Assembly (NCBI GenBank): GCA_029531795.1
Contig: JAPEIS010000010.1
Coordinates: forward strand, 682,001 to 746,000
Direction of reading: 5' to 3'
Length of the DNA: 64,000 nt
DNA from: Sclerotinia nivalis
Taxonomy: Eukaryota > Ascomycota > Leotiomycetes > Helotiales > Sclerotiniaceae
Shown here: one piece after another, positions 6,358 through 52,156 of the stretch
How positions within the stretch are numbered: position 1 is the stretch's first letter
Layout of the letters: each line of letters begins with the position of its first letter
Notes under the pieces: model-generated
Told to the model about the DNA's origin: nothing
Databases searched by the model: none
Seen by the model: only the letters and a program-made list of their open reading frames with translations
Made by a program: the position numbers and the translations under genes

Positions 6358-8584
6358 CTACAAGTACCAATTTGCCTCCAAATCCGTATTCAGTAAACTA
6401 TCAAAAAACATCGTATTATCCGCCTGTAAACCCGACCAATCTTCAAATTGTTGTTCTGGTTCCAATGCAGGAAATTGACTACTCTTGAAAGAGACAATTG
6501 GTTGAGCAGCCCATGGACAATTAAGTGAATTAACGAATTCATTCTGAGCTTGTGAGTTGTCTCTTGGTGTCATATTCATAAGAGCTGGAGAAGTGTTCGA
6601 CGAAGATTGGTCCGTATTGATAGAGGGAGTCGATTGAGTGATATTCGTAGCGGGTGTTGAAGATTTTGGCGTACGTGCTATTGAAATAGTTCCGAAATAT
6701 GGGATTGTTAGACGTAAATTTCCGCTGGTGCTAGTGGATGAGAGGAGAGTTTTGATGACTTCGACACTTTGAATGGCCATTACGTCTTCTTCGGAAGCGC
6801 ATTCGCTCATGACATCAAGGACAGTTTCCACGAGTTCTCTGTCGGAACGTTTTTGGTCTTGCACCGCGATGGTATCTCCTCCTACCGGTGGAGTTTCCAA
6901 AATACTCAAGAGGAGAGTTACACATGCCGTGAATGCACCAAAATCGACAACTCTGCAACAGAATGATGCCGCACCGGAGCGTCTAATTGTGAGATAGCGG
7001 CATATGCCTTCTCGTGATGATTTCATACATGCGAATTTACTATATTCGTAACGACGTTCTGTGTCAGCTCGAACCATAAATGGTAGATGCAAGAATGATT
7101 GTAACTGAAAGTAGTAAATTTGTGACATGATTCGATCGAATTTTGCGGCTGAATGCCTATTTTCGCTGATGATTTCAATACGATCGGGTATTTCCCACCA
7201 AGACGAAGGCATTTCTCTTCCAATATTCTCGAGTTTCTCATCTAGTTCTTGAGTACTGGCAAATGCATGAATATGTTCGGATTGATTTCGTTCAATAATT
7301 CCTCCAGCCAAATTTGTAATTTTTCGAATGAAAAGAAGATCATGGTCGATATTAGGATTGCTGAATGTTTCGTGTGGTAGAATAATGCTGTCGCCTGCTC
7401 CGGCAGGCATACCCAAGAGTAAACTTAGATATCTATCTGCCTGCATTAGGCTCCTCCAAAGGTGATTTCCTCCTGGTGGTAAAGGTGTACTACCAAGCTC
7501 TTCACGTCTATGTAGACCCATAAGTTGACCGATATTCATACCTCGACGAAATGTAAGCCATGAACGACGTAAATTTCCAGCATTCATATGGAATAATCCT
7601 TGGAGCATCAAACATTCCAGCCCTTGAACACAAGCCACGAGTTCATCGTCTGAGGTCACGAGTCCCGAGACGGTTGATATTATTTTGTCTGTTCGAGCTT
7701 GAACACTTGTGGTAAATCCAAGTTGACTGGCATCATATCCATGAGGCACTTGCTGTAAGCATACAGCTACGTAAAGAAGTGTCTGTGCTATTGTTGCAGG
7801 ACTTTCTTTTCCAATGCTAGGAATGTTAAATGAATGATTCGGATTGAATCCTGTTGGCTTTAACATAATTTGAGGCGAATGTTGTGATAAAGAATGCATC
7901 AATAGCCAACAATCACTGAAAGAACATAGTTTATTTGTAGCTTCTTGTGATGGAAGAAGTTCTATTAAAACATCTCTGATTCTTTCAACCTTTGTTGGGG
8001 GTCCACATTGCTTAGTTGACTTCTCTCCATTTGACTTCGATTTGGAAGTTATGATCTGACTTTCCTTTTCTCGGCGACCTAACTTTGATGGATGTGAGCA
8101 AATATATCAGTATATGAAGTATTGGACATGGGACATGGGACATGGCAATACTTACAACAGAATTATCAAACAGAGAAAGTATTGGTACAGTTGTTGCACT
8201 ATCATATCCAGTTGAGGTAGTATTTGGGAAAGGTGTAAGAACATCACCAGTACCCATACTTTCTGGAGTATGAATTTTCGTGGCATTTTCTTGCTCTTCA
8301 TAATGATCCATTTTTGCCATCAATCTATCAAGAATAAGCTCTATACGACCAAGGCGTTCACCAATTTGTGGACCACCTGAAGAATCATGTTCTTCTGGAT
8401 ATTCTTGACTTATACAAGTCGTCCCACGTGATAGGCAACCAGAACAAACGCTGACATTTTCAGAACTCAATTGACATTTGACTTTTCTTCTTTTACATTC
8501 CCAACAACTTTTGGTTCCTTTCCTAACACGTTTCTTACGATGTTCTTCATCAGCGAGAGCCACTGAAGCTGGTCTAACTGACAT
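6358..8584 (-). CDS. Zn(2)Cys(6) fungal transcription factor
   Basis: Exon 1 is 8584-8156, the intron 8155-8083 (donor GTAAGT) and exon 2 8082-6358, giving 717 residues. The acceptor before TTAGG was chosen because it alone keeps the long exon 2 frame open. Residues about 27-54 form a complete zinc cluster, CWECKRRKVKC and then C-x2-C-x6-C, with the usual six cysteines and basic loop that bind CGG-type half sites. A short coiled-coil-like linker follows. Exon 2 contains the fungal transcription-factor middle homology region, with a GLECLMLQGLFHMNAGNLR helix and RRGMNIGQLMGLHR. The C-terminal 130 residues are Ser/Thr/Asn/Gln-rich and acidic, which suits an activation region. The target genes cannot be told from sequence. 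The nearest metabolic candidates are the UbiA locus and the CaaX array, and no link is shown. Confidence 0.9.
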
Positions 8585-9719
8585 GTTGAATTATGGATTG
8601 TGGGTTGTTGAATGGCGCTGGAGGCTTGAAGGTTTGACGAAGCCTGAATGTCTCTTGAAGTTTGATGGTACCAGAAGTTCCAAGGTCAGATGTTTCTCGA
8701 AGCTTAGATGTCTCAAGAAAGGTTGAATATCTTTAGAAGTTTGATTTCCCTCAAATCTTGAATGTTTGATTGAGCACAGGGGGTGGATAGGGATATCGAG
8801 CTAGTTCCGGATCAGTGGATAATGTGGTTTTGCGCTATTCTACACCAACTTCAAAGTTCGTTTTTGGGTCGTCTCAAAAGAGTAAAGTAGTTAATTTATC
8901 GATTTAAAAGAAGGAAGAGAACAAGTTCGTATGGATGAGAATTGCGTGAGAAGCTTCTTCCACTTTACCAGATAAAGAAAAGGGAAGAAAAGGGTGGGAG
9001 GGAGCGTTCTTCCTCCGCCGTTTCGACGGAATAATTAAAACAATTCACGTGACTCGTCTTTTCAAACGCACCACTACTCAAGTACCTACTTCGTATCACA
9101 CTTTCCCTATTATGGAATAAGGTTATGAATATATGATTGGATCGATCATAAGAATGGATTGATGAATTGAATTGTTTTCTTCTCCATCCACTTGGTTGAT
9201 TCTTCCACCCCGGACATAGGAATTAACAAACAACTTCTTTTGGTACCGGTATAAACTTAAGTCCGCATTACACTAAACCCTTTTTGAAAAACGGTCGGCA
9301 GTGGGGCTAGGGTTCGGAATCTTTAAATTCCGATGCTTTTTCAACCTCTCCTTCTCCTTCTACTTATATCTTCAACTTCAAAATTATGATATTATTCAAA
9401 TTTATATCGAATGATCTCAAGGTTTGCAATAATGAAGACTTCAAAGTGCTGCAATACCATCTATAGGTTGTTTTTCGTTCAAGTTTATTGAAAATGAGCA
9501 TAACGATAATGATTATAGATATCGACTTGGATTTTTCTTTATATTCCGCATTAGAGAAAGTACAATCCGAAACACTTGAGTTTATAGGTTTGGGGGCTTG
9601 CGGCCATTTAACATGACCTCATTTCTATAGCTTTGAGCGGAATCATTACCTTGGATTAGTCAAGAGCATCTTGAGCGTTGCAGACTTTCACACGGAGCTT
9701 CTTCGAGTACACATTTAAG
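8585..9719. other. Upstream region of the zinc-cluster gene
   Basis: No supported gene. The first part (8590-8740) has imperfect repeats of the theme TGAATGTCTYTTGAAG. The rest is ordinary AT-rich DNA and probably includes the 5' leader of the transcription factor. Confidence 0.35.
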
Positions 9720-10551
9720 TTCAAGTCAAAATGTTTATCCACGTCTTATTTCCCCTCCACATTGTCTTCACATACTCCCATCATTCCACCCCTTAACTTG
9801 GATGTTATGTGAGTGGTTTTTCTGGAAGACTAACGTTTAATAATGGCTCTCATTCATGAACATATCACTAACACTAATCCATAGGCCATTATTTTCCGTA
9901 CAAATTGGTCTACCAAAATCCACAGAATGCGACACCAAAGAACCCCGCAATTTACGTGAACATGAGTTCTCCGAAGACGTGACCGTTTTTCCACTTCTTC
10001 TACCATCGTGAACCAATATAGAAAACACATATAATTGTTACCAGCCAGTAAAACTGCATCATGCGAGCCTACGGCTATGTGCTGAAAAGGGGAAATTGGG
10101 TGCGATTGTTAGAGTGAGAGATGTTTGGGAAGAGATTGCCGGGGGGGGGGGGGGGGGTACTGATGCTAAACGTGCGGTGAGTGTTCTTACGAGTTTGATC
10201 AAAAGGTTAACGGTAAAGGTTCAGAATAATGTGGTGTTGAATTTAAACCTGAATCCGATTAAATAACCTCCTACGATTATTAGTAATAATGTGGATGTGG
10301 AAGCCGATCTCAAATACGGCGCCGATGCATACAATTGTGTCTGTACCACCGCTGTTCAGTCCGGAGACGGCAGATAATGAATATGAGTATAATCCCGGAG
10401 AACATGTTTGATATCGCGGAATCCTTGGGACTTTTGGAGAGCAGGTTGATGTACCGGGATATTTTGACTGGGTGAGTTATAGATGTAGTGGTGGTTGGGT
10501 TGGCGGTGGCTAACCGAAAAACTTTAGGATGCATGGATCAGATCATTATAG
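9720..10551 (+). pseudogene. Unidentified decayed multi-exon gene
   Basis: Several plus-strand segments look like real coding sequence but do not join into an intact frame. One is IIPPLNLDV, followed by a good intron (GTGAGT at 9808, branch-like CACTAAC, AG near 9888). Then come PLFSVQIGLPKSTECD, LREHEFSEDVTVFPLLLP and a TGA at 10009-10011. After that come KLHHASLRLCAEKGKLGAIV, RVRDVWEEIA, a run of 17 G (10141-10157) and DAKRAVSVLTSLIKRL. A TAA stands at 10264-10266. After a frame change comes FDIAESLGLLESRLMYRDI, followed by a GTGAGT donor near 10483. I do not recognise the family. It could also be a live gene with introns I have not resolved or with homopolymer sequencing error. Confidence 0.35.
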
Positions 10552-11063
10552 GTCCACAGACTTCGGGTCATGAGAGGTTTTGATATGCAAACTCGATATT
10601 CCTAATGCCAACTATGGAGTTATCCAAAAACCAACACCAGGACCTGTCTCCCACATATTCATCACCTTTGCATCCCAAACCATGACTTCAAATTCTGGTC
10701 TATCTCTGAAATCCAGTCATTAGCCCTCGAATACACAGAATGACTCCAGGACTCATAAATATCACACCTATGACTTTCTCAAAAATAATTAATGCGATTC
10801 ATACGATGGCCATATCGTGTGTATATAGTTTCGCACCCTCTTGCGGAGTTACACAAAGCATTCGAAATAAAACATTCAAACCACAACGCAACACAACATT
10901 CAGAATTTGAAATAATCCACCATCAATTTTTCATATTTCAATCAATATTGAACCTCTTACGCACCGCACTTACTTCAGTCACAACAGTCCAGCCCGGCCA
11001 CTCAAGCCCACATCGTCATTGCCGTCCACTCATTCCTCTTGTTCACTTTCAAGCATCTCCAAC
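10552..11063. other. Upstream flank of the CaaX array
   Basis: No supported gene. The last 150 bases are pyrimidine- and C-rich, like the leaders of the other array units, and probably form the 5' leader of unit A. Confidence 0.35.
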
Positions 11064-11622
11064 ATGTCAAACCCCCAACACAATATTACATCACGACAAC
11101 GCCGAGTCCCCCTAAATCAAAACGGTCCCAATGCTTTGTGCACGAGCAATGCAATCCCTAACTACACGCCTCAACCAAGTCCCAATGAATACTAAAAAGC
11201 CTCAGAATACAAAAATCCGTTCCAATTTGCTCAAGATTCTCAACCTAGTGCCGATGAATTCAAGCGCGCACTGGAAAAACGACAGCCCCCTACACCAGCA
11301 CGCACACCATCTCCACAACTTAGTATAATTTCGACGGATGGACAAAAGCCTATGCATGAGACACCTGATCATAAAAATGATAGGTATTATGCTCACTTCC
11401 AGCCAGCATCTGGGAAGCCATCGGGGCTAGGATGGGCCGTAGGTCAGGGAGCGGTTCCTTCGTATAATACCACGATTGAGAATGTAAAGCGTATTCCCGA
11501 TCCTCAGGAGAAGAATGAGGTAAGCATAACCACCTATTCTCTTCAATAAATACAGGAATATTAACCCCTGTCGATAGAAACATGACGAAGATGGCGGACG
11601 TTGTGGTTGTTTGATGATGTAA
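11064..11622 (+). pseudogene. CaaX array unit A (in-frame stop)
   Basis: The body frame runs from ATG 11064 to 11519, then intron 11520-11577 (donor GTAAGC, 58 bases) and last exon 11578-11622 encoding KHDEDGGRCGCLMM and stop. The C-terminal CLMM fits a CaaX box, with Met last (favoured by farnesyltransferase), and an extra Cys two residues upstream could be palmitoylated. The frame is continuous except for one TAA at codon 44 (11193-11195), after PSPNEY. The reading frame and the splice signals on both sides are intact. So this is either a recent nonsense change (CAA to TAA is the simplest) or a site of recoding. The body is Pro/Gln/Asn/Ser-rich and looks disordered. I recognise no domain. 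Confidence 0.6.
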
Positions 11623-12542
11623 GCTATTGAGTACGGCGTTATGAGGATGGAGTTAACATCATTGGTGTACTACCTAGTAGTATCATAAGATATACCATAT
11701 ATACGTTAGAGAACATCATACTGTATAATAGATAATCGTTGCTTTCTCTCAAAAGGTTTCAACAATACAAATGAATCTTTTACTCTCAAACCAGCCTACC
11801 CCGTATTGATTTCAAAACGTACATGACATTTCAGAATCGAAGGGTGATGGTACCGTATGAATACTAGTTTCTGTAGTACACATGTGGAATCAATAACACC
11901 TAAATAGTTCGATGCGTGGAGAGTGAATTGTAATTATGGCTTTCGACGGTACCCGTGAAGTTGGGCGAGAATTTCCTGGCAGCAAGCAGGTAGTCTCAAA
12001 TGAACTTTCATTTGAAACATGATGGAAAATACAATATCAATGATATCCACTACCGAACCCAGAATTAATGAAATATCATTACAACCCTCCACAACACTTC
12101 GCCGCAAGAACCTTAGCCATTCTTTAACATATTCACCCACCCTTTCATCCTTTCCCTTTCTCACAACCCAGCCATTCCCCAAAATCAGTCACAGTGACTC
12201 CCATAACCCGGGGACTCATAGCCATCATACCTTTGGCTATACACCCACATTGACGAGACACATAGTTCCGCGCCTCCGTATTTTCCAAGAACTTTCCTGA
12301 ACTCCAAACACGATATCCAAAATTAGAAAATTAAGATTCTTACTTTCAAATCCGCGCATGTTAATAGATATTCATCTTTTTGTGCTTTTCAATTCCAGGT
12401 ACGTCGTTCAATATCTTACTCAAAAATCTTACTCCGCGCACCTCAAACCACATCATCACCATCGCCATCCACCTCATTCCCTGATTCCCACATCCACAAC
12501 CACAACCAGACCCCTCCCAATTAACCAATTAAATTCGCAAAC
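11623..12542. other. Spacer between units A and B
   Basis: It begins with the 3' block of unit A (about 11721-11760). The phrase TGGCTATACACC (12234-12245) has a counterpart in the spacer between C and D (near 14352), so spacers were duplicated too. No independent gene is supported. Confidence 0.45.
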
Positions 12543-12899
12543 ATGTCAACCTCAACCTCAACCTCACCCTCACCCTCACCCTAACCACACAACCAAACTA
12601 AACCCCGGGTCCAAAATCAACACACATGCACCCTCCCAGCCACCCACACACACTCACTTTTCTCATGCACGAAACCCCAACCTCCCCAATCCCCCCACAA
12701 AAACCAAACCCTCACCCCCCAAACCCCAAGTCCTGAGAGTACGAGGCGGTTATAAAACCACCACATTCACCCACTTCAACAATCCCGATATACCCGGTAC
12801 CAATCCTATAGAGGTGGGTAATATACCAGTCTATCGAATAGAGGAAATATGCTAACGTGTGCATAGAAAACGAGTGGATGCTGTTGTTTGATGATGTAG
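12543..12899 (+). pseudogene. CaaX array unit B (start frame does not match)
   Basis: The last exon 12867-12899 encodes KTSGCCCLMM and stop: a CaaX box preceded by two more cysteines, like the doubly lipidated tails of Ras proteins. The intron is 12814-12866 (donor GTGGGT, branch GCTAAC, 53 bases, phase 0). Upstream the body is open in the matching frame and is extremely Pro/His/Thr-rich. The ATG at 12543 stands in the same context as in unit A (CAACATGTCA / AACATGTCA), but its own frame hits a TAA after 12 codons; the body lies in the neighbouring frame. The only in-frame ATG is far upstream at 12358. A one-base frameshift within the CAACCT/CACCCT repeat is the simplest explanation; an unrecognised 5' exon is possible. 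Confidence 0.5.
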
Positions 12900-13368
12900 G
12901 GCAGTAGGAATTATATTGTGAGGATGCTACTTTTTGCTAGATAAATGGCGAGGTGTATTGATGGAATTACCGATGCTGTAGGAATTTCGCACAGGGCTTT
13001 TGGATATGGAAGGTCTGTATAGTAAATAATCGTAGCGTTTCAAAGATGTCAAAAACACAAATGAATTTTTTCAGAAGAATATCACCCATGATAACTATCA
13101 ACAGCCAAAGCACGGAAGATATTGGCCCGCAGAACAATCAACCTCAGCTCCCCTCTTCAGATCAAGGCCTCAGCCAGAGGAATCCCAGAGCTCCGCGTCA
13201 CCGCATATAGAATATGACTAGACGGAATTTGAATATTTAAAGCCTTATTTAGGGCCGGTAGATAATCCTCGTCGTGGGGGGATAAAGTATCAGCAATCAG
13301 CAGCAAAGGCCCACGAGCGGAAAGTCCGCTTCGATCAGCCATCAGTACCGCTTCTTCCAAGTGACAAC

Positions 13369-14026
13369 ATGTTCGAACAACAAAGAGGACCCTACAACCC
13401 GACGTCCTACGCAGCACAACAACCAGATATTACTCGCGGACGCACACGCATTGAAGTCCCCATGTCGAAAGACCCCTCTACACACCAGCCACCAGCACGG
13501 GTAAATCAATCGGTAGAGAAATCTGTAACGCAATTACTCGTAGTACCTGTAAAGAAAGCGAGTAGGGCAAAAGATTTCTATGAGATGACATTCATGCTAA
13601 AATCTGGTGATCGTCGTCATGGGGTTCGGGAAGTAAGATAATGCATAAACCCTTTCGCTCAATAAGCACGAAGCATACTGTGAAAGAAGTAGATCGAGAT
13701 ACATGCGTCCTGATTGCATGTTGCAAAGGGGGAATAGGAATAAAGAACTGATTAGATTACATTGTAAAGGCTTCAAATAGTATAATTAATAGAATTAACA
13801 ATGAATTTAAATTATATATAATAGATATACAAAAAGATTAATAAAAAATGATTGATTATTCAAGAAAAAGAGGGCGAAGCCTTTTCCTTATATCTAATTA
13901 CAAAGGATCATGTAACCTATTGACTATGAATTAGTTACGTATTTAGCTTCAATAATCCAACTTTCTCACAATACTAACACATTTTACTAGGGAAAAAAGA
14001 AATCACCCAGGTGTTTGATGATGTAG
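13369..14026 (+). CDS. CaaX array unit C
   Basis: Exon 1 is 13369-13632 (88 codons), the intron 13633-13990 (donor GTAAGA, branch ACTAACA, phase 0) and the last exon 13991-14026 encodes GKKKSPRCLMM and stop, 99 residues in all. The tail differs from the others: it pairs a single CaaX Cys with a basic patch (KKK-x-x-R), the K-Ras4B type of membrane signal, instead of extra cysteines. The body is hydrophilic, with no recognised domain. The same frame is open upstream to about 13095 except for a TAG (13207-13209), so the gene may once have begun further upstream. The 358-base intron is unusually long and holds an AT-rich, inverted-repeat-bounded segment. Confidence 0.55.
13751..13898. mobile_element. 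Possible MITE-like insertion in the intron of unit C
   Basis: The left end ATTAGATTACATTGTAAAGG (continuing CTTC) and the reverse complement of the right end (13876-13898) match imperfectly over about 23 bases, including a perfect 9-base AAAGGCTTC/GAAGCCTTT pair. The interior is very AT-rich and non-coding. No target-site duplication is obvious. Confidence 0.3.
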
Positions 14027-14621
14027 ATTAATGAGTATGGAAAGCTGCGGATAAAACTTCACATAATGTTGTATTTTTATTATGGAGAGAACATCGCGAG
14101 GTACTACCACGAAGTGTGTATATTGGAGTTCCTGGCGCTATCAAATGGATTTTAAATATTTCTAGCTTGTAGCATAAACACTCTTTACTTTCTCTCAAGC
14201 AAAACTAAGTTTTAAAAACTTTAATGAATCCTTTCACTACACAATTACTTTAATCTGAAAAACATCCAAAATACATCTCAAACAGTCATTCCCACACCAT
14301 TATCTCCAGTCATTTATTCAATCCCTTTCTCCAATTATGTGTCACATCATACTTATGGCTATATACCACAATAACGACTCATAAGCCAAGTAAAAAGGGT
14401 ACGTAGCATTGTATCACCATCTCTTTTAGGAAATGATCAAAGATACCAAAATATCACAGTACATCCAAACTTCAATACGTTTACCACGCTTCAAGCATCT
14501 TACTTTCTGCACTTTGCTTCGAGTACCTCGAAAAGAGTCATTGATTCATATCGCTGTTCCTCTTGCTCACCTCGCTCGCCTCGCCTTTGTTCCACGTTCG
14601 TATTCAAACCCAAAATCCAGC
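14027..14621. other. Spacer between units C and D
   Basis: It contains the 3' block of unit C (14168-14200), the shared TGGCTATA phrase and the C/T-rich leader of unit D. No independent gene is supported. Confidence 0.4.
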
Positions 14622-14932
14622 ATGTCATCCTCGCGAAAAGATATGAATTCGAAAGCGCAGGTCGCCTCGAAGGAGAAGCCACATACTAGTATCTTCACTG
14701 AAGTGAATATCGATGTCGGACCATCGCGAAGACCGCCGCCAATATATGTCAAGGACCCGCGTAATGTATGTTTCGATGATATGGAAGAAGTGAGAAAGTC
14801 TGATGCTCGTCATGATACAAAGGTATTAGGGATGATACATAATCCACACTTGACTTCAACATATTTGGGAAGTTTACTAATTTCTTTGAACAGAGTAAAG
14901 AAAAATCGGGATGTGCCTGTTTGATGATGTAG
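14622..14932 (+). CDS. CaaX array unit D
   Basis: Intact. Exon 1 is 14622-14822, the intron 14823-14893 (71 bases, phase 0) and the last exon 14894-14932 encodes SKEKSGCACLMM and stop; 79 residues. The CaaX box is CLMM with another Cys two residues before it, so farnesylation plus palmitoylation is plausible, which would direct the protein to plasma membrane or endomembranes. The body is charged and Pro-containing, with no domain I know. I chose ATG 14622 because it begins MSSS in the same context as units A and B (ATGTCN after a pyrimidine-rich leader); the frame is open further upstream to 14433. If the intron is retained, the frame continues for 33 residues and ends without a CaaX box. Confidence 0.65.
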
Positions 14933-15769
14933 GTTGCATCATGTACTCGAGTAGATTACCAGCGGATATCTCCTAGATAGGGATAGGGATATGTGTATGA
15001 TTGAAGATGGGTATTATTGGAGACGGGTATTATTGGAGATATATATCGTTGGGAATGGATATCATTAGGAGTGAATATTAATGGAAACGGGCATCACAAG
15101 GAATAAACATTATTGAAAACGGATATAATTAGGCACCAGGAATCATTTTACCTCCATATTATATCCAATTCTTCGGGGGGTAGCTAGTGCTTTAAGAATG
15201 ACTACTTTCCCTGAAGTTATTGCTATCATTAGAACTACCGATGCTCCCGGATTTCCACGTCGATTTTGGATATTTATTGGCTGTATGATAAACAATCATT
15301 GCTTCTTAATCGGTTCCTAGAACGCAATCTAGCTCTTCGCACAATCTTGACTGTAATGAAATAGCTTTATGTGTAAATATGAGTTTCGACCACTCGAGGA
15401 GAAAAGAGATGAGAATATACCAAAGGGTAACCTTTGACTTCAGGAGTCGTAGGTACTTCAGGGCCTATAAGTGTCATACTTATAACTATGCATCCCTAAA
15501 AAAACGATTCATCATAACCTACACTATAGAATATATATTTTTGCATCCTCTTCCTTGCAGGATTCCTCAAGAATTCAAAACCATATACTTCAAGTATTCA
15601 TAAATTTATCATCTTTGATCTTCCTACGCACCAGTGTCGCTCTAAACACTTCGAACTAATAATAATTCGCATCGTCCTTCCCCTCGCGCCCCTTACTCTC
15701 TTTCCTTTTGAGTTTCAAACATCAAAACCCCAACACCTCGAAATCAGTATTTTACCCTCACGCAACAGT
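14933..15769. other. Spacer between units D and E with degenerate short repeats
   Basis: From about 14988 to 15140 a degenerate 17-18-base theme (GGGTATTATTGGAGA-like) recurs about seven times. Related words appear after unit E (16410-16445). The 3' block of unit D lies at 15280-15312. No gene is supported. Confidence 0.4.
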
Positions 15770-16369
15770 ATGCATTCAAGACACCAAGTAACCCCTCAGA
15801 ACCAAGCACAAAACGATGAGTTCGGTATAGACACTGCCGATGCCTGGCCTCAGTACCACTATCCTCGACGCGAACTAGGGGAAAGGCAAGCAAACACGCC
15901 GGTGCGCGCGCGACGCAATTTACAAAGCACCCTCCACTATCCTCCGCAAAAACAACCAGAAAACATAAAAGCCGCGCAGATCAAAACACCACTAATTGCG
16001 GTGACAGGCAATGGACATCTTCGCACGCCGCCAGGAGGATATCAAATGAAAAATCCTAAACATTTTCACGACCCAATTAAAACGTTTGATGAGAACATTT
16101 TGTTTCCGGCAGTAGAGCAAGGTGATTCCAGGACCAACAGGACGTCAGAAGAATATTCCCAAGGGTATAAAAAATATTTCCAGGGAGAAACCTCACGGTC
16201 GGCGGCTCCACGGGCGGGGGCTTCGAGGGTGGCGGAGGCAGAACGTCAGCAGCGACCAAAAAGCCATCTTGTAAGCAAAACATAATCACCAACCCACTCA
16301 AAAACAGAAAGCATACTAACTTCCCCCCCTTCCCCCCCCAAAAAGAATAGCTGCTGTTCGACAATGTAA
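15770..16369 (+). CDS. CaaX array unit E
   Basis: Intact. Exon 1 is 15770-16270 (167 codons), the intron 16271-16345 (donor GTAAGC, long C-run before the AG, phase 0) and the last exon 16346-16369 encodes NSCCSTM and stop; 174 residues. CSTM fits a CaaX box with Met last, and the preceding Cys could be palmitoylated. The body is hydrophilic and looks disordered, rich in Gln, Arg, Pro and Asn, with no recognised domain. It is the most diverged unit: the Leu-Met-Met tail is replaced, but the exon plan, phase and 3' block are kept. Retention of the intron would end the protein four residues after the donor (VSKT) and remove the lipid anchor. Confidence 0.65.
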
Positions 16370-16970
16370 ATTATCAAAGGCATCGCTTGGACGGGGTAAT
16401 ATGACATTGGAGGTGGGTATAATTGGGAATGCGTATCATCATCATTGGAGTTACTACCCAGTAGTTCTTTGAGGGGTACTAGAACTCTGGGAGTTTACTA
16501 ATGGCGTGGAGATTTATCCACACACAAATTCGAAGATCGTTAAACTCTCTGCACAATAATCAAATAATAGTCGCTTTCCCTCCAATAGGTTTTTGTAACC
16601 ATAATTGCAAAAAATGTGCTACTAAACACCATCAAGAACGTGAGCTTTCTGTTGGCAGGCAAACAGGCAAGTAGGCTGGTCAAATAATATCTCACTTGAG
16701 GGTTCTCAAGAAATGTTATATCACATAAAACTGTACTGTACTCAAGTGTTGATCATGCCCACCCCCGAACCAGAACTAATGAAAGAATATTCACATAATC
16801 TACTGAGTGCCACACAAAAATCGTCCAACATCACAACCTCGCAACACAAGGCTCAGTCATTCCTTCATATACATATCCAAATTCACATAACCATCTTCAT
16901 TTTCCATGCATTACTAACATCCCGATCCTCACAACATCGCCTTTTCCCTTTCCCTTATAACCCCAGGCAG

Positions 16971-19028
<2,058 letters not shown>

Positions 19029-22559: not shown

Positions 22560-25500
22560 GTTAGTCACCAAACTCTCAATTATTCACTCACGCTACATTC
22601 AGGCCAAATGTAGATGGAGTAGTAGTAATTGATATAATATCTTACCCTCAGCCAATCTTTCCCCTTTATTAACCAACTTTATGTGTTGTTGAAGTGTGGA
22701 GAACTTCGATGCGAAGTAGTTTCGAATTGGTCGAAGAAGGTAGGTATTCAAGCACAAACGAAATGTGCTTCGAAATTGACCGGATGAAGATCAATGGGGA
22801 TTAAATTAAACTATTGGTTTTGGTGTAGTCTCCGTACGATGATTACGGATTACGAACGCTTTGATTATTGTTCTTCGGTGAAAAAGATTTCGACACGTCG
22901 CAGAAATTGTAAAATAAATGGTCGTAAAGTTTTGTGAAAAAGAGAGAAAAACAGTTAATCAAATAGGGTTTCTCTTAAGGCGTCTAAATTTTTGGAATCG
23001 ACAAGAAGTAAAAGGTTTGAAGAAGATCGAGTTTGTTGTCAAGTAACGAACGAAGGGGTAAAGTAGTAAAATGGTTGAATTCGGTAGATGGTTGTTATTT
23101 TTTTGGATGTTGAATGTTTTTTCAGTACTCACCCAGTACCTACTCGTCTATTATCGTTTGGACGAATGAGATTCCAGGTAGGGTAGGTAGAAGAAAAGAG
23201 CCTGTGTAGAAATTGAGGCGTTCCAGTAGTGAGAAGAAAGAAAGAATGAGTGAATTTGTTTTCGAATTGTTTTCAGCCTTTTCGAATATGGACGAATTGA
23301 ATGAATTGAATGAATGAATTGGACCGAATGATAGTTGGTTTCAATGTTTTGTGCCCGTTATGTGAGACAAATAAGTGACATCTCAGACAAGAATTTTCCC
23401 CTTCCTTTTCATTCAAGCTCACTCCACTCAGGCTACACGAACGAACCTCCACCAAGTAGCTTTTTTCCTTCTCTTTTCAGGGTTCAAGGTATTTGTTTTT
23501 TCTAAAGCCCGAGCCAACGTGGTACGAAATTAGATTTCTTGGATGGCGGTGGACTGGGCAGCCTGGGCAGCCTGGGCTTTGACCGTGATATCGGGATTTT
23601 AGGGATAATTCGTGGGTCGAATTGATTCTTGATTTATATCGATATGAGGTATGGTCGTTTGTTGTCTTCTTTGATCTCGAGGAATGTGTTTTTTAAGTAG
23701 AGGACTCGATGAGATGAATCGATGTTACTCCTATGAAAACCATCAGAACAAATATATCTTGAATGGATTTTTGTTGACATGAACAAAACTTGAAGGTATT
23801 AGAAGCGGGAAGTTAGTACTAGGTAGCTGGAAGCTTATACAGGTGCTAAAGTTTTAGGGTAGGTAGTACTCGAATAGTCCTCCGTAAGTAGGTAGTATCA
23901 AGTTGGTTCCTGCTCTAATAAATACAACTAACTAGGTAGGTAATTGACTTCCGAGGTCTACATTTCTAGTTCTTATCTCCTTCTCCTTGATCGCCTTGTT
24001 CTTTATATTCCTCGGTATTTCTCATGGAAATGAGATACGATGTAGATCAGACAACTGAATCGTGAGAAACGAACATCGATAGTCTACAGACTAATAAGAT
24101 CCAAAAAGTATATCTCCCGTACAAAAAAATCATCCCAACTTCAGGACCTATTTCTCATACTCTTTTGTGATATTTCGAGATACATATCGCCTGCACTGCG
24201 CCTGAAATGTTCTCAAGAGGCACAATTGGTGGTTCCCTTTTAGCATGCAGTGTCAATCATGATATCCCCACGAATCAGAATTGATGATATCGTCAAAATA
24301 CGAATGTACGAAGTAAGAAAACGACCGTTTCATTTGTGGCTGTGTTTTATGTAGGTAAGAAAAATTCAATCACATCAATAACAACGGCGTCGGTCAAATG
24401 ATTAATCATATCTTAAGCCACAATCGTATTGCACCCACCTTATTTCATCGGCGCAATCCGCTGGGTTGAGTTATCGACGAGCTTGCCGTCATTCTGGAGC
24501 TCACCATCACCATGGAACTCAACTCATGATTCACGAGCATTCATCCCTTCACAAAGAATGAATCAAACGTTTCCGTCGTTGCTCAAACCTTCTCTTCCGG
24601 GTTGTAACATCATTCGGATCTCTCCTTCCTAATGCATCTTCGTATTACCCAAATTCGGTCAAAACTCCTCCGGATTTGGTGATCACTGTCTCTGTGCGTA
24701 TCAAAAAAACTTCCATCTTGAACTTTTCAAAGTGTCACAATCCCCTTTAACCCCTTGATTAACCTTTCATAAAAATCAAAAGATCTTGCACACAACATCA
24801 AATTCCTCCATCTTCGCAACCAATTCCATTCAGAAGATCTCTCATTTCATCTTAAGATCTAATCCATGAATCCTTACCTTCCATTTCTTCTTTCAATCTT
24901 CCATTCCAGTGAGATTTATTATAGATAATAAGATCAAAAACCCATAATATATATGATTCGTCAATAAATCGGAAATTAAAGAAATACCTACACGGGTGAC
25001 AAAAAACCTTAGGGACATTTCCCCGTTGTTTTTCCAAGTTGGTTAAATTAATAAGCAAGGGGTAGGGCAGGGGCAACATGAAGACCTGTTGAACCACGAG
25101 ATTTCTAGGACCTGGGTTCTTGATTCCTTGCACTTGAGGATTCTCCGATATAAATTTGTATAAACATGGAAGAAAATTGACGTCAGGAAATTATGGTAAG
25201 TATTGTTGTCAAACTTGACACGAAGAAGAATTCGTTGAGTACGAGGAAGAGTAATGGATGTTGCTGGTCTGCAAGTGATTTGGCCAAATCTTTCATTTCC
25301 TCGGGTATTTGGTTCACCTTGAAACCATTTACATATTACCCCGAATTGAGGAAAGTACACTGTACCCATAGAATTAGTTTCGAACAAACATGGAGGCTCA
25401 AAAGAGTGACATGATTTGAGAATCAGCGATTCGAATGAACATCTCCAATTCATGCAAGAATTAAAAACAATGCAAAGTCTCAGCTAGTCAGTTGTGCCTG

Positions 25501-37920: not shown

Positions 37921-39787
37921 TTTTTTATTATTTTTGAATCTTGTTTTCGGGAGGTGGGGGGAAGAGGAGTAGGGCAGGTTAAGTTTTTGATTAGTGTTTG
38001 GGTTTATGGGGTGTTACCTACTTAATAAGTTGTATCCACGTAGCTTGAGATCATACATAGACCTAGATACTTATATACATCAAATTCTTCGTCATCTGAA
38101 GTCGGATTTCTTCGTCCATCGTGTGATTACTCTGGCTGTTGTGTGTTCTGATGATGCTGGTGGATGTGCCAAAGTAATCAATCTTGGCTGCTCAATAAGC
38201 AATAGACACAGAGTTGAGGAGGTATAGAAAGTACCAAAGAATCAAAAGGATGATCAAAGTAAGATATTTGAACGATAACAAACTATTAGTTACCTAGTCC
38301 CCAACTACTCACCAACTACTCATAGTTCAGACAGGGTAGATTTTAGCTCATCGGAAATTCCTAACAAAAGAATTTCTCAATCAACATGAATATAATGTAC
38401 ACAACGAGATGGACCGCCATGAAGTATTTATGATGGATGGCGAACAGAATTAATGTGGATAATCCTAGAGCAAGAACATTTTTAAGGAGGGAAAGTTGAT
38501 GATATTACTGCAATTGACTGGCTATCGTAGATAATTTTGAAGGTGGGCGGAGATCTGGTATTTTACCTGTCATGGTCAGGAATGTCACCAACTAGAAAAT
38601 GAAGAAACCCTAAGTGACGGCTGTATACAAACATGACAGTACTAGGTAGTTCTCTCTCTTTCTTCGGAATATAATATAATTTCATATCCATCTTTTTTCT
38701 ACTATCAATTATAAGTTTTGTATTCACGCGTTTTAAGGTTACTTCAATATCATTGGTTTTCTTTACGATCATGTCTCATTTCCCCCTCAACGATCCACCC
38801 TGTACATACATTGGTGAAACATACCACGGGAAGGAGATTGATCTTTATGGTGAAATTTCAGCCCTATAGCAAACTATCGAATATATCAAACAAATCTTCA
38901 AAGAAGATAACTGAAGTTTACCATTTGAACCATCCACTCTAAATCAGTCCCTTGATTCCCCCAATCACAACAAACTATTCCCAAAATCTGAAACGGTCAC
39001 CAACCTACATCCATGGTACAATCATCACTCCTCCGTACGCGCTTACAAAGTTATTTATGTACATGTTCATTCGATTCGATTCCACCTTTCCTAATTCGAT
39101 CTATTTTGAGATTAGATGTGGCTAAAATGAGAGAAGATGATTGGTTTCATGTAGTACAATCCACGTTTTATTGGGGGCGTCTAGGTTCAAAAGCGCTCTT
39201 GGCAATCCAGCCCCAGCTTTTTGGGTATCATCCATCTGAATTATCGGAATTCTAGAGAATGGACGTGAAGGTAATAATACAACGTGGAAAGTCATGGATT
39301 ACCTGCAGGGTTTCTTACCTTGGGTTTGCGATAGTGATGGATGTACTATGAATAGGTATCATCTTTTTGTATCTATCTTCTCGGTCTTCTCTGTTGTAGA
39401 TCTTACATTTTATGTGTACAAACTTCAACAAAAGCCCCGAGAAACACAGCCCATCTATCTCTACACAAACTACGAGCTTATCACCAGGTACGAAAAGGCT
39501 GTGCCGCGAGAAAGCCCACCAAAGCATACTTCTCAAGAGTTGAACCTTTCACATTCAAACAATTAGATTCGGGTTTGAAGATCAATCGTTTGAAGCTCTA
39601 GGCTTCCATCAAAAGTCAAGGGCGAGTGCCATTAGGCCCGCTTTACCATATCATCAGGTAAATTATATATCCCACTCTTTACATATAAAGGAAAACGTTG
39701 GTTCTAACAATTTCCTCGCAGTTGTTTTCTTGAGAGTTTAATATTCGATATATACACCAAAATTTGGAAGATTTAAGGAATTGGGTT
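37921..39787. other. Intergenic region with possible relic
   Basis: Between 38771 and 39100 one plus frame reads MSHFPLNDPPCTYIGETYHG and later LFPKSETVTNLHPWYNHHSS, interrupted by stops at about 38867 and 38912. It could be a decayed gene; I cannot name a family. Nothing else is supported. Confidence 0.3.
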
Positions 39788-42547
39788 ATGGCAGAACATG
39801 AATCTGGGGATACCTCTCCACACAACCATTCCACATCATCATCCTCGAAGACAAACCCAACACATCATATAACCTCAATTGGAGACCACAAACCTCCCAA
39901 GACGCGTATTAAACGTTACACAAGAAATCATTCATCATTAGCATCAACACTCTCACCTACTTCAGAAGCTTCTTTACTCTCTAGTGAAAGTGATGAGATT
40001 GATATCAGTCATGTGCCATTATCTGCACATATTTTAACATCATTGGGTCCTATGGATGCTTCAACGAAATATAATCGAAAATCATCATTTCTACCAGAAA
40101 CTTCACGAACAGGACCAGCTTCTCCAATTCGGAAATCATTCAAACTTTTCTCCAAACGTGCTAGTTATAATCCAGCAACCACAAAATCAGATGTCGATTC
40201 GGGCAAAGATACAACGAAAAGCGACATTACACCAAAGAGGTTTTCTCAAAGAAAATCATTCCTCAAACATTCTCGAGATGCATCAATCCCCGAAGAAGAA
40301 TTTGATCTCAATCTATTAAGTGCCGCCATACCCATGCCCTATCAACGAAAAACCTACGACAAAACCGCCAGCGAAGAAACCGAATATGAAGATGCACCTA
40401 TGGTATCCCCCATGGCCATTCCCTTCGATCTCTCCATGTTCCATGAACCCATGAATAATTCAACCTTGACCCCCGCGATGCGCGAACAAATAAATCGTCA
40501 AGAAGCTGCTGGGATACTTACCGGAGGATTGGGTGCTGGTTTTACTCCCGACAGTACGATAACTAGTACGGATCTCATGGCCGAATCATCACAATCTTCT
40601 ACCACCGCTTCACGCCTCTCTCGACGTCTTACATTTCGAAATGGTGGTTTGAGTAGAGCACCCACACTCAAAGATCTAGCACAAAACGAAGCAAATAGAC
40701 GAGGCGAAGTAATCGAAGTAATCGTCCAAGAACCCATATCCGCACCTGTCGATATAAGTTCATTCGGAGGCCACACCATGGGAACCCATCAACCAAATTT
40801 CGATTTCAAAAGTATGGATTCCTTACCCCTGAGTATCAACAAAAAAAGCACCTTCAAATCTTCCAATATCGAAGTATTCTACCCCCAAGCAAACTGGAAA
40901 CCCTTTTCAATGCGAGCACCCTATCTCACAGCTCTCATAATAATCTCCATCGTCCTCGGAGCCGCCGAAGAATACCTCTATCAAAAATCGCTCAAGAAAC
41001 CTTTATATTCATTCACATCTCCCTCTCTGATGAAAACATGGGATTATTTTTGTTTTAAATATTTACCCACTCTCGTCGCCGTTACCTTTGGTGTATTATG
41101 GCAAATCACCGATTTTGAAGTTAAGCGACTGGAAGCCTATTATCAACTTTCCAAAGAAGGGGGTGCGTTGGCCGCGGAATCAATTAATGTGGATTATATT
41201 ACTTTTTTCAATGTATTGCGTCCGTTTCGAGCACTGCTTTTTAAACATTATGCAGTAGCCGTTTCGTCCATTGCAACTCTAATGGCGGTCTCATTAGTAC
41301 CAACATTACAATCCGCAAGCGTGATCCTAATACCCAACCGCGCGGAACGAAAAGCCGATCCGGGCGTGATGAAGGGAATAGTAATTTCAGGGACCTGGTC
41401 CCGATTATTAAGTTTGACCCTGTGGCTCTGCGCCATATTCGGTTGTATACTACTCTGGCAACTGGAGCGCAGACCCTCGGGTCTCGTCGCCGATGTAAAA
41501 GGAGTAGCGGGCATAGCCGCCATGGCAAATCGCAGTCACATCCTTATGGATTTCAAAGATATGGATACGGCGACGCCGGATATGATTCATCAAAAACTAA
41601 AAGCTCATCGTTATACGCTTCGGAACTCGTCGCTCGCCCCCGAAGATATTATCATACTCACGCAAGCCGATAAAGATAAATACGATTCCCACCAACACCA
41701 CGATGAAAATCCTCATCCATTATTTCTGCGTCTCGTCGCCGGAATCCCATTCGTGGTCGGCATGTTCCTCTTCACAATCCTCATCCCTATAATCCTCTTC
41801 ACCCCCGCAAACATCATCACAGATAAAGCACCCTGGCTCCTAACTCTCGGCGCCGTATCCATCAAACTCTGCTGGGGCAGTCTCGAAACCGCCATCCGCA
41901 TGATCGAACCCTTCTACATACTTTCCCTCCGACACGCCTCTCCCACCGCTCTAACCCTCGACTATACAGCCATGGCATTCGGCTGGTTACCCATCCGCGC
42001 TTTCCTCAACGGACATTACCTCGTCGCGATCGTAGGACTAGGATCCGTATTAGCCGAAATCCTAACCGTGTGCGTCACGAGTTTTAGCACCGTCACCGGA
42101 AACGATTTCACATCTGGACTTTCCTCCTCTTCCAAATCCCGCGACTCAAACATCAACTCCGGAGAAGAAACCTACGCCTCCTTCTGGGCGTCATTCTTCC
42201 TCGCCCTATTCATCCTCCTCTCCCTAATCCTCATCTCCATCATCTCGTACACACGACGCCGCCACGCATTTCTCCCGCGCCAACCATCGAGCATAGCGAG
42301 TATTCTCGCGTTTATATATCAATCGAAGATGCTGTATGATTTTGTCGGGACGGAGAAATTAAATAATCGGGAGATGGAGGAGAGGCTTGTGGGGATTGGG
42401 AAGCAATATGGATTGGGCTGGTTTAAGGGCAGGGATGGCGAAATGCATTGTGGGGTTGATGAGGAGGAGTTGAGTGGGGGGTATTTGCATGGGAGGGATA
42501 AGAAAGCGGAGGGGTTGCCGTGGACTTCGAATTGGCAGGATTATTGA
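39788..42547 (+). CDS. DUF3433-family multi-pass membrane protein
   Basis: An open frame encodes 919 residues from ATG 39788 (MAEHESGD). Residues 1 to about 365 are Ser/Thr-rich and cytoplasmic in character. Then come W-K-P-F-S-MRAPYLTALIIIS and predicted helices at about 377-398, 421-443, 485-508, 540-560, 645-673, 741-763 and 799-821. The repeated pattern (a W-P motif, a membrane-anchored helix ending in E-x-L, then KYLPTLVAVTFGVLWQITDF, EVKRLEAYYQLSKEGGALA and ESINVDY) is characteristic of the fungal DUF3433 family, in which it normally occurs twice. Function is unknown. The last 100 residues are cytoplasmic. A short upstream exon cannot be excluded, since the frame is open for eight codons before this ATG. 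Confidence 0.85.
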   Translation: MAEHESGDTSPHNHSTSSSSKTNPTHHITSIGDHKPPKTRIKRYTRNHSSLASTLSPTSEASLLSSESDEIDISHVPLSAHILTSLGPMDASTKYNRKSSFLPETSRTGPASPIRKSFKLFSKRASYNPATTKSDVDSGKDTTKSDITPKRFSQRKSFLKHSRDASIPEEEFDLNLLSAAIPMPYQRKTYDKTASEETEYEDAPMVSPMAIPFDLSMFHEPMNNSTLTPAMREQINRQEAAGILTGGLGAGFTPDSTITSTDLMAESSQSSTTASRLSRRLTFRNGGLSRAPTLKDLAQNEANRRGEVIEVIVQEPISAPVDISSFGGHTMGTHQPNFDFKSMDSLPLSINKKSTFKSSNIEVFYPQANWKPFSMRAPYLTALIIISIVLGAAEEYLYQKSLKKPLYSFTSPSLMKTWDYFCFKYLPTLVAVTFGVLWQITDFEVKRLEAYYQLSKEGGALAAESINVDYITFFNVLRPFRALLFKHYAVAVSSIATLMAVSLVPTLQSASVILIPNRAERKADPGVMKGIVISGTWSRLLSLTLWLCAIFGCILLWQLERRPSGLVADVKGVAGIAAMANRSHILMDFKDMDTATPDMIHQKLKAHRYTLRNSSLAPEDIIILTQADKDKYDSHQHHDENPHPLFLRLVAGIPFVVGMFLFTILIPIILFTPANIITDKAPWLLTLGAVSIKLCWGSLETAIRMIEPFYILSLRHASPTALTLDYTAMAFGWLPIRAFLNGHYLVAIVGLGSVLAEILTVCVTSFSTVTGNDFTSGLSSSSKSRDSNINSGEETYASFWASFFLALFILLSLILISIISYTRRRHAFLPRQPSSIASILAFIYQSKMLYDFVGTEKLNNREMEERLVGIGKQYGLGWFKGRDGEMHCGVDEEELSGGYLHGRDKKAEGLPWTSNWQDY

Positions 42548-48735: not shown

Positions 48736-51144
48736 TTAATGGTCATAACCTGCTCCACGCTGCCAAGGACTATCATATTCGTAAGCTTATGCACGTCATC
48801 AATCATCAGTAAATTCTTACCTAGCATTGCTTTGGTTCTGATTCTGATTCTGATTCTGAGGTCTGAAACCCCCAGGTGCAGGACTACCACCGTTTTGTGA
48901 TCTATATCCTGATTGCGACAAGTTTGATGTCGAAAGATTGTCTTGGTATGGAGCTGGTGATGCATTGTTCGATCTATCATTTCCGTAAAATAAAGGAGCA
49001 TTACTATTGCGCCCTCCATCTTGATAATTTGGTGGTGGACCTCGAGAACCACTTGCTGGGAAAAGAGGAACCGATGGATCAACAGGTGAATGAGGTGCTT
49101 CTCTAACTGATGGGTTTGACTCTCCATATGTTCCTGTACCTGCTGTAGAAGGTGGAAGAGGCATATTCGTTGGATGTCTCATAGAATCAGATGACCATGA
49201 ATCATTGTCATCATCTAAATCGAGGTTGTGTTTATATCCAGCCTTATCTCCTCTAGCAGTAGCTCCCAAAGCATCCAACTCAGTGGTCAAGCCCGTATTT
49301 GACTTGATGAATGATGCACGATCATCAGTCATTGGTAAGTAACGGCTATCTGGGTTCTTGCGAACAAAAGCATAGACGGTAGCAAGTAAAACAAGAATGA
49401 GAAGAACCAATGAGAAAACTGCGTTGATAATGAAGAAAACAACGCCCATAACACCAGTGACGATACCTGGTTGATTGAAAATATCCGTGAATACCAAAAG
49501 GAAAATGGTGTTTAAGAAGTTGACGGCACAAATGGCGATATTGAAACTATTGGTACTTTTGTCCATCCATGGTCGAATAACACTGGCTCCAATCAAAGCA
49601 GCTGCTTCGATTAAAAGAAGAGCAATAGCTTGAACTGTAGATGAGTTTTGTCCAAATGCGATAAACATTCCCTTAATAACAATATAAATTAGAGTCGGAA
49701 GAATGAAATAATAAGCCGTTGCTCTGAATTGGACGTAGAGGAAACCCCACTTGTTGAGAGCCGAAGGATCTGAGTAGAGAATGTATGCTGGATTTTTGTG
49801 CATCAAAACCGATCGTTTGGCGATTCGAACAACTTTCATAGCTGCCCAAGCGAGAGTCCCTGTCATACCAAAGAAGAAGAAAATGGCCAAAACAACTTCT
49901 GCTGGAGAATCATTTTGTGTGAATTCCCAAAGACATAGAATGGTCATCTGTGGGTAACCAATAAGTACCATACGGAACATAATACCCTTTAAGACAGTGA
50001 ACCATCCATTGCGGAAATCCAAGAATTTATCCGATTTCATCCACTTCACTTTAACTGCAAGTTCACAGAATCCTTTGAACAGTGCAACAAATAAGATGGT
50101 GAAAACAATAAAGATACAGAAGAAAGCCAGACCAGTCAAGAATAAATTGGTAGATTCGATACCGGCGCGGAATGCTACTCGTTTAATTCCTTTGACGAGA
50201 TATGATCCAGTTGTTGTGGTAGTATCGGCTCGTTTTGTCAGGATTTCATGTGCTCGAGTAAGAAGTTTAATGGTATGTTCGACTGATCTCTTTCCCATGG
50301 AACGTTTCTCGACTTGAACAGATGTAGTGGTCAAAGTATTCAAGAGTGTAGCTGGAGTTCCACCAGTGGACTTTTGATACCAAGTTGCAATGCTTTGCAT
50401 GAAATCGACCTCAATTATACCCATACTCCAATCGAAATTTTGAGTCCATGATTGAACGATAGGTGGAAGAGGAACAGAGGTGAGTCCGATTATGGCTTGA
50501 GCTTGAAAGTATCCAAAGAGTGACAAGGCATTAGCTGCTACATGAGCAGCAGTGTTCGAATGACCCAATCCAGAAGTTACAGCAGATGCTACCAAAGCCA
50601 ATCCAGCAATAACGGCAGTCGCCCATCCTACGCCCTTTTGATCGACGGTTTGCCCGTTTGATAATTGAGCTTCGACACATGCCAAACTAACATCGGGGTT
50701 CGCTGTACCATTGATAATAACTTTGACATTAGCATCCAAATCCGGTACTCCGTATGCGATCGATGGAATGCTATCAACTGTAGATTGAGGAACAGCAATG
50801 TTAGATCGAATATCGATTTGACCAGTACTCATTGGGCAAAGTCCCGAAAATCCAGAAGAACATGGATCGATGACTCGATTTAAAATGGGATATCCATAAG
50901 CCGTGACTTCGACATCGAAAGTAACATTCCCTTGAATAGAAGAAACACCAACTACATCGAACGTGAAGGTTAAATTTCCAGGTGTGAAGACGACATCGAA
51001 TAAAGTTGCCGTAAAACTCGAATTATCCTGACACGCGTTCAAGGACTTGGATTCAATTAATCGAGTTGATGCTGAAGCGAAAGAGAAAAGAGTAAGAAAT
51101 GAAGTCAAAAGGACCCATGGTGTTGATGAGAACGTCGGTCGCAT
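48736..51144 (-). CDS. TRP-like ion channel / flavin carrier (Flc) family protein
   Basis: Exon 1 is 51144-48821, the intron 48820-48770 and a 34-base last exon 48769-48736; 785 residues ending SPWQRGAGYDH. An N-terminal signal peptide (about 1-25) precedes a lumenal ML-like TRP_N domain (about 27-165) with paired cysteines (NACQDNSSF, DPCSSGFSGLC, SLACVEA) and N-glycosylation sequons. Helices begin with GWATAVIAGLALVASAVTSG. The multi-helix TRP-like core spans about 330-600 (FIVFTILFVALFKGFCELAV, PQMTILCLWEFTQNDSPAEV, LFVFTDIFNQPGI-like). The tail is Pro/Ser/Gln/Asn-rich. Flc proteins work in ER and cell-surface FAD and calcium homeostasis and cell-wall integrity. The short last exon was deduced from the typical C-terminal end in this family. 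Confidence 0.9.
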
Positions 51145-52156
51145 GTTGCAAAAACCGTATATTAAAAGAAGCCTGTGAAGGCTTTAATGTAGAAGATTTG
51201 ATTCCGTGACACCCCAAAGCCTTTTATTGTGCGAAGAAGAAACCTTGTACCGAGTTATGAATCGTATTTTCCTTCCTTCAATATTTTCTTAATCGCAACC
51301 CCTTTGTATTTGTCCTTCTTTCGATGGGATAATTCAACTGATTGATCGCGTTGTAATAGGTGTTTAGGATTTGTTTCGCCACTATTCTTTCTTCAATTCT
51401 CCAAAACGGCCGACAAAGATCAATTAATGAATCATTGACAGACTTGGAATGATTAGCGACCGTGGGTAATTTCGTAGATCCAGCTCACGAGGTTTGTTAA
51501 TAACGAGGGGAATGTATCTCTGCGAGAGAGATAAAATGACGAGTTTGTCGAGGATTGGGAGAAATAACGAAAGGAGGTCGACGACTAGGTTTAGGATCTG
51601 GGTCTGTTGGTGGTCGTCGATTCGGAAGTTTTAGAATAGGAGTAGAAGGGTATTTTGGGGGGAATTGTGATTGTTAGAAAAGGTTAAAAAAAGGAAAATG
51701 AAATGGAGGAGAGGCGGAGGAGGGATGGAGGCGGGAGGCGTAGTAGTTCGTAGTGGTTAGGTTTTCAAGGTTTAAAGGTTTAAAGGTACGGGTATCGGTA
51801 GGTGAATGTTATTATTATTATTATTTTTTCCCTTTCTCGTTTTTAGCGGTTATTGTGACGAGTAGGAATTGTTGTTAGGGGAAGAATGAAGGGTCTGATA
51901 CCCAATGGATTTAGGCCTTGCAGCTTTAAAATGCGTAAGTATGAAAGAAACAAGTTTAAGATATTCGTAAATTCGTGAAATATTATACTGTGAATAAGAA
52001 CAAAAGCAATAATGATAATGATAATGACAATTATAATCAATTATTTACTTGATGATAGAAAATCATTCAAGGAAAACAATTAATCATGAATTATTAATTG
52101 ATTAGCCAAGCTTAACTGATTGGTTGAAAGTCCCTTGAGCTCTTGAGTTCTCACCA

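Follow-up and report, generated by a model that had tools for sequence, protein, structure and literature searches.

The locus considered here raises the question of what unites a row of neighbouring small genes whose protein bodies appear unrelated. It lies in the plant-pathogenic fungus Sclerotinia nivalis (Sclerotiniaceae, Leotiomycetes), in a 64,000-nucleotide (nt) stretch (C10:682001-746000) of a genome of 50,322,193 bases in 31 contigs; this whole stretch is referred to as the window, and coordinates below are those of the window unless a contig is named. The window contains an array of five units, U1–U5, arranged head to tail on the + strand at approximately 10745-16605. Sequence comparison indicates that the units are paralogs, having a tail exon, a 3′ block and, in four of the five, a 5′ block in common. 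We read the array, with a probability of about 0.58, as a tandem birth-and-death family of small, hydrophilic and probably disordered proteins that are predicted to be farnesyl-anchored. The feature described in an earlier note on this DNA is largely real but smaller than first claimed, with one fully clean gene (U4), one doubtful tail (U5) and three damaged or ambiguous copies.

In U1–U4, a C-terminal CLMM is coded on a last exon of 10–14 residues. The tail introns of these units, which measure 58, 53, 358 and 71 nt, respectively, are in phase 0 and end in a YAG acceptor, with a branch-like motif (TAAC or TAAT) that starts 15–17 nt ahead of the exon. The 15-mer coding CLMM-stop, TGTTTGATGATGTAR, is found without mismatch at four places in the 50.3 Mb genome, each of them within the array. 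Its neighbours are poorly conserved between the units, which share 1–6 of 12 upstream bases and 2–10 of 15 downstream bases (ten pairs). Genome-wide, one-mismatch relatives of the 15-mer occur at 37 places (41 matches less the 4 exact ones), and a reversed control pattern gave 17 matches with up to one mismatch. Inspection of 26 of these 37 places as loci identified 10 that code C-x-x-x-stop; none of the 26 combines a branch-like motif with an in-frame YAG acceptor within 60 nt, and two have the acceptor but not the motif. A locus on another contig, L021 (C6:2311008-2314022), ends in GGCCLVM and has a 15-mer one base off that of the array; we take it to be a likely G-protein gamma gene.

The putative tail of U5 has 11–12 of the 15 bases in common with the other tails. 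Its CCSTM end requires the unusual acceptor AAAAAG, a TAG acceptor 5 nt further on (AATAG) puts the tail out of frame, and the branch-like motif lies 30 nt away. The earlier note had proposed five tiny last exons behind phase 0 introns, and this description holds for U1–U4, with their CLMM ends, YAG acceptors and branch motifs, but is doubtful for U5, in which CCSTM needs an AAG acceptor.

The tail exon had also been thought to be the only shared part, which proved incorrect, as the 5′ and 3′ blocks are homologous between units too. A model of the 5′ block (R2) was built from U1 (10745-10850), U2 (12209-12294), U4 (14331-14431) and U5 (15458-15567), all on the + strand. It has no further match in the window, so that U3 is without a 5′ block. 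The 3′ block is present in all five units, likewise on the + strand (U1, 11702-11781; U2, 12996-13072; U3, 14146-14235; U4, 15261-15327; U5, 16548-16605). A model of this block built from U1–U4 (R1) picks up the U5 block at an E value of 0.00074, which identifies U5 as a paralog; a weak match at 22906-22953 (E value of 0.2) was taken as chance. In the 3′ region of U4 (14995-15120), imperfect short repeats resembling GGTATTATTGGAGA are visible by eye, and part of this region matches the 3′ region of U5.

Between the shared blocks, the bodies of the units are not alignable with each other, judging from comparisons of all ten pairs with shuffled sequences. As protein, the best p value was 0.02 (U1–U2, proline-rich), which is not significant given ten tests, and as DNA the best p value was 0.095. 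These tests uphold the earlier view of the bodies as mutually unrelated, and their hydrophilic character is likewise evident (grand average of hydropathicity of −0.96 to −1.40). Their disorder is suggested, rather than proven, by low-confidence AlphaFold models of a U1 relative (P0008) and a U5 relative (P0002), both with a mean predicted local distance difference test score of 51.0 and with predicted template modelling scores of 0.14 and 0.11; these models were made from three sequences each, and such shallow alignments can alone give low confidence. The claim that no GTPase or other domain precedes the tails was confirmed for eight family proteins scanned against Pfam, in which no family scored above the cut-off, and which accordingly contain no Ras or G-gamma domain. 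Matches below the cut-off, to DUF4495 (P0005, long leader) and UL135 (P0001), were taken as chance, and P0005 had no match when searched by sequence against the PDB.

The earlier picture of the five units is overstated, several copies being damaged or ambiguous in this genome. The body exon of U1 (11064-11519, +) has an in-frame stop at 11193-11195, after 43 codons, and is followed by the tail exon KHDEDGGRCGCLMM-stop (11578-11622, +). The S. nivalis annotation OCU04_008830 is a 70-residue protein that starts downstream of the U1 stop, is spliced to GGRCGCLMM at this same junction, which is also used in the models of two other species, and is identical to the end of U1. Orthologs of U1 in Stromatinia cepivora and Sclerotinia trifoliorum are open across the stretch that holds the stop in S. 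nivalis. In U2, with a body exon at 12543-12813 (+) and the tail exon KTSGCCCLMM-stop at 12867-12899 (+), the homologous ATG at 12543 is not in the reading frame of the tail. That frame, however, has no stop from 12301 onwards and offers an ATG at 12358, which leaves U2 ambiguous and its death unproven.

The body of U3 (13222-13632, +) is an open frame with no clear start, immediately preceded by a stop. Its tail intron contains a dispersed repeat (13675-13973, +, approximately 299 bp), of which at least 39 further copies with 81–88% identity were found when 40 of 210 candidates genome-wide were scored; minus the repeat, the intron would be approximately 59 nt, as in other units. The ends of the repeat look like inverted repeats by eye, and it is perhaps a miniature inverted-repeat transposable element. 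The tail exon of U3, GKKKSPRCLMM-stop, lies at 13991-14026 (+). U4 is the sole unit that is clean from ATG to tail, with an intact body exon (14622-14822, +) and the tail exon SKEKSGCACLMM-stop (14894-14932, +) giving 79 residues. U5 has an open body exon (15770-16270, +) and the putative tail exon NSCCSTM-stop (16346-16369, +), with which it would reach 174 residues. Downstream of U5, positions 16650-16800 look similar by eye to the U1–U2 spacer (11970-12080) and are possibly what remains of a sixth unit.

Relatives, in addition to proteins of this same genome, were obtained from three word-based protein searches, which can miss distant or unannotated genes. In S. cepivora, orthologs were found of U5 (EAF04_002863, 82%), U4 (EAF04_002864, 87% over 67 residues), U3 (EAF04_002865, 74%) and U1 (EAF04_002866, 78%), and their consecutive locus tags suggest that the same array exists there. 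Further relatives are P0008 of S. trifoliorum (U1, 61%) and P0003 (U5, 69%). No ortholog of U2 was returned by the protein searches, in which the query held only part of U2, and no protein of Botrytis or Sclerotinia sclerotiorum was returned by these word-based searches, the family having so far been seen only in Sclerotinia and Stromatinia. The annotated U1 gene models of three species place a CaaX-like end at the translated C-terminus behind the same junction: CLMM in S. nivalis, CLMV in S. cepivora and CSIQ in S. trifoliorum. Cys-Gly-Cys next to the tail end is invariant across the three models. Between S. nivalis and S. trifoliorum, identity in U1 is 8/13 in the tail exon, 42/57 in the second part of the body and 49/86 in the first part, so the tail as a whole is not the best kept part of U1.

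A family of predicted farnesyl-anchored proteins is favoured by the confinement of the CLMM 15-mer to the array (four of four) amid diverged flanks, by the splice-like introns, by the U1 gene models, by the S. cepivora orthologs, by the recognition of the U5 3′ block with the model of the other four units, and by the hydrophilic, domain-free bodies with their low-confidence folds. CaaX boxes ending in Met or Gln suit farnesyltransferase, those ending in Val are poor substrates, and nearby cysteines or lysines provide a second membrane signal, as in the hypervariable C-termini of Ras-type proteins. In such a family, the body exon would be spliced to the CaaX tail, which would then be farnesylated, trimmed and carboxymethylated via the ordinary fungal route. 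The second membrane signal could be supplied by extra cysteines in U1, U2 and U4, through palmitoylation, or by lysines in U3. Together with the lipid tail, it would keep the body at the cytosolic side of a membrane, where the body would serve as an interaction surface that evolves fast. Turnover of the family would proceed by birth and death, some copies apparently being damaged already in this strain; that the family's diversification is driven by conflict, whether self/non-self or with a parasite, is a guess. The roles put forward in the earlier note, as adaptors, allorecognition factors or secreted lipopeptides, are speculative. The plan of CaaX plus second signal is like that of Ras, and G-protein gamma subunits are likewise small with a Cys-CaaX end, but the GTPase domain of the former and the GGL domain and body of the latter are absent from the eight family proteins scanned.

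Several observations weigh against this family. The tail of U5 is doubtful, and U1, U3 and perhaps U2 look damaged, which would also fit plain decay. The CaaX box with Met last, on which the earlier note had relied, is found in U1–U4 but not in the U1 relatives, which end in Val (S. cepivora) and Gln (S. trifoliorum), and the Val-ended protein argues that the last residue is not under strict constraint. Loss of the tail in close species, which had been named as a point against the proposal, is not seen for U1, whose tail is present in the models of three species, whereas in S. cepivora it is missing from the models of U3, U4 and U5: those of U3 and U5 extend beyond the donor, and the U4 model ends exactly at the exon end, so that they neither prove nor exclude conserved splicing. 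Decay without function is the main rival, although we consider it unlikely. A once-useful CaaX gene would have been duplicated, with the copies drifting, the bodies under relaxed constraint and the tails surviving as relics, in keeping with the U1 stop, the out-of-frame ATG of U2, the lost 5′ end and repeat insertion of U3, the doubtful acceptor of U5 and the drifting last residues of the relatives. Decay alone does not readily explain why four 15-mers were kept while their flanks diverged, why the frames of U1, U3, U4 and U5 are open in S. cepivora and U4 is intact in S. nivalis, or why the U5 frame is also open in P0003, though shorter at its end. More improbable still is a modular cassette, in which the leader, CaaX exon and 3′ region would be kept and duplicated while the body exon was replaced or hyper-diversified. 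Each lineage would thereby gain a set of membrane-tethered disordered proteins of its own, under a conflict such as self/non-self recognition.

Little probability, below that of the cassette, is given to the idea that the units encode a-factor-like pheromone precursors, from which farnesylated C-terminal peptides would be cleaved for export, to act as lipopeptide signals in mating or otherwise. In favour of this idea, the genes are small, with a C-terminal CaaX and a rapidly changing remainder, and a CAAX/CPAX end, which according to PMC10569646 is the only strictly conserved a-factor character, is found in U1–U4 (CLMM), with U5 ending in CCSTM if the AAG acceptor were used. The a-factor proposed there for Leotiomycetes (Botrytis cinerea BCIN_13g03330) resembles the array units in being a small fungal protein with a CaaX ending in Met and, in many families, fast change outside the tail, and that paper itself doubts a classical mating role for it, noting that it may not act in mating. 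It is, however, another gene, conserved in Sclerotiniaceae, with 45–64 residues, mostly a CTVM end and a GY motif in 87 species, and the array has neither its sequence nor its plan. A GY near the C-terminus is absent from the five tails, which are polar and different in each unit; GGY occurs in U2 and U5 inside the body only. Compared with the a-factor limit of fewer than 100 residues, U4 has 79, the U1 relatives 159 or more and U5 174. PMC10569646 also lists other small CaaX proteins (up to 100 residues with a terminal CAAX/CPAX), encoded by 11 genes in S. sclerotiorum and 12 in Monilinia fructicola; these are the same class of object as the array units and may include relatives of U4, and no tandem array is described in the sections consulted. 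Linkage to a pheromone receptor was not seen: the single STE3 found (two exon matches) is on C6, unlinked to the array. A pheromone role is the less likely reading. The least probable explanation, and a very unlikely one, is that the 15-mer is conserved as an RNA or DNA element rather than as a coding tail. It is identical in U2–U4, differs in U1 in the last base only and contains TGATGA, which we take to resemble box C. As just three sites in CLMM are synonymous, this nucleotide identity adds little, and the ends of the relatives change yet retain the Cys and stop spacing. An RNA element such as a box C/D small nucleolar RNA was rejected, given that Rfam has no match in the window and none at E values up to 5 in 10500-17000.

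Used as genome queries, the leader of U1, the U2 unit, the body of U5 and the piece of U1 after its stop each matched themselves alone, and the stretch of U3 and U4 matched, besides its own position, the repeat of the U3 intron. On this basis, dispersed copies at other places in the genome were rejected, in searches so insensitive that the U1 leader missed even the leaders of U2, U4 and U5.

The array is flanked by a Zn2Cys6 open frame (8015-8590, −) on one side and an alcohol-dehydrogenase-like open frame (17207-17911, −) on the other. Upstream of the array, as is the Zn2Cys6 regulator frame, lies an open frame of the UbiA prenyltransferase family (1203-2381, +); to our knowledge, the substrates of UbiA enzymes are small molecules and not CaaX proteins. 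Ordinary fungal genes in the window include those of a DUF3433 protein (39734-42544, +) and a TRP-like (ML-domain) membrane protein (48820-51183, −).

No description of a family with this plan was found in searches of an open-licence PubMed Central library, within which the earlier note's statement that none is known is borne out. If the tails work, the family would be united by a lipid anchor and a gene architecture rather than by a domain, and ordinary homology searches would miss such a family. The array would then lend itself to studying how disordered coding sequence can outpace the surrounding non-coding blocks in divergence, and would be a warning for a-factor gene hunts that rely on CaaX ends alone.

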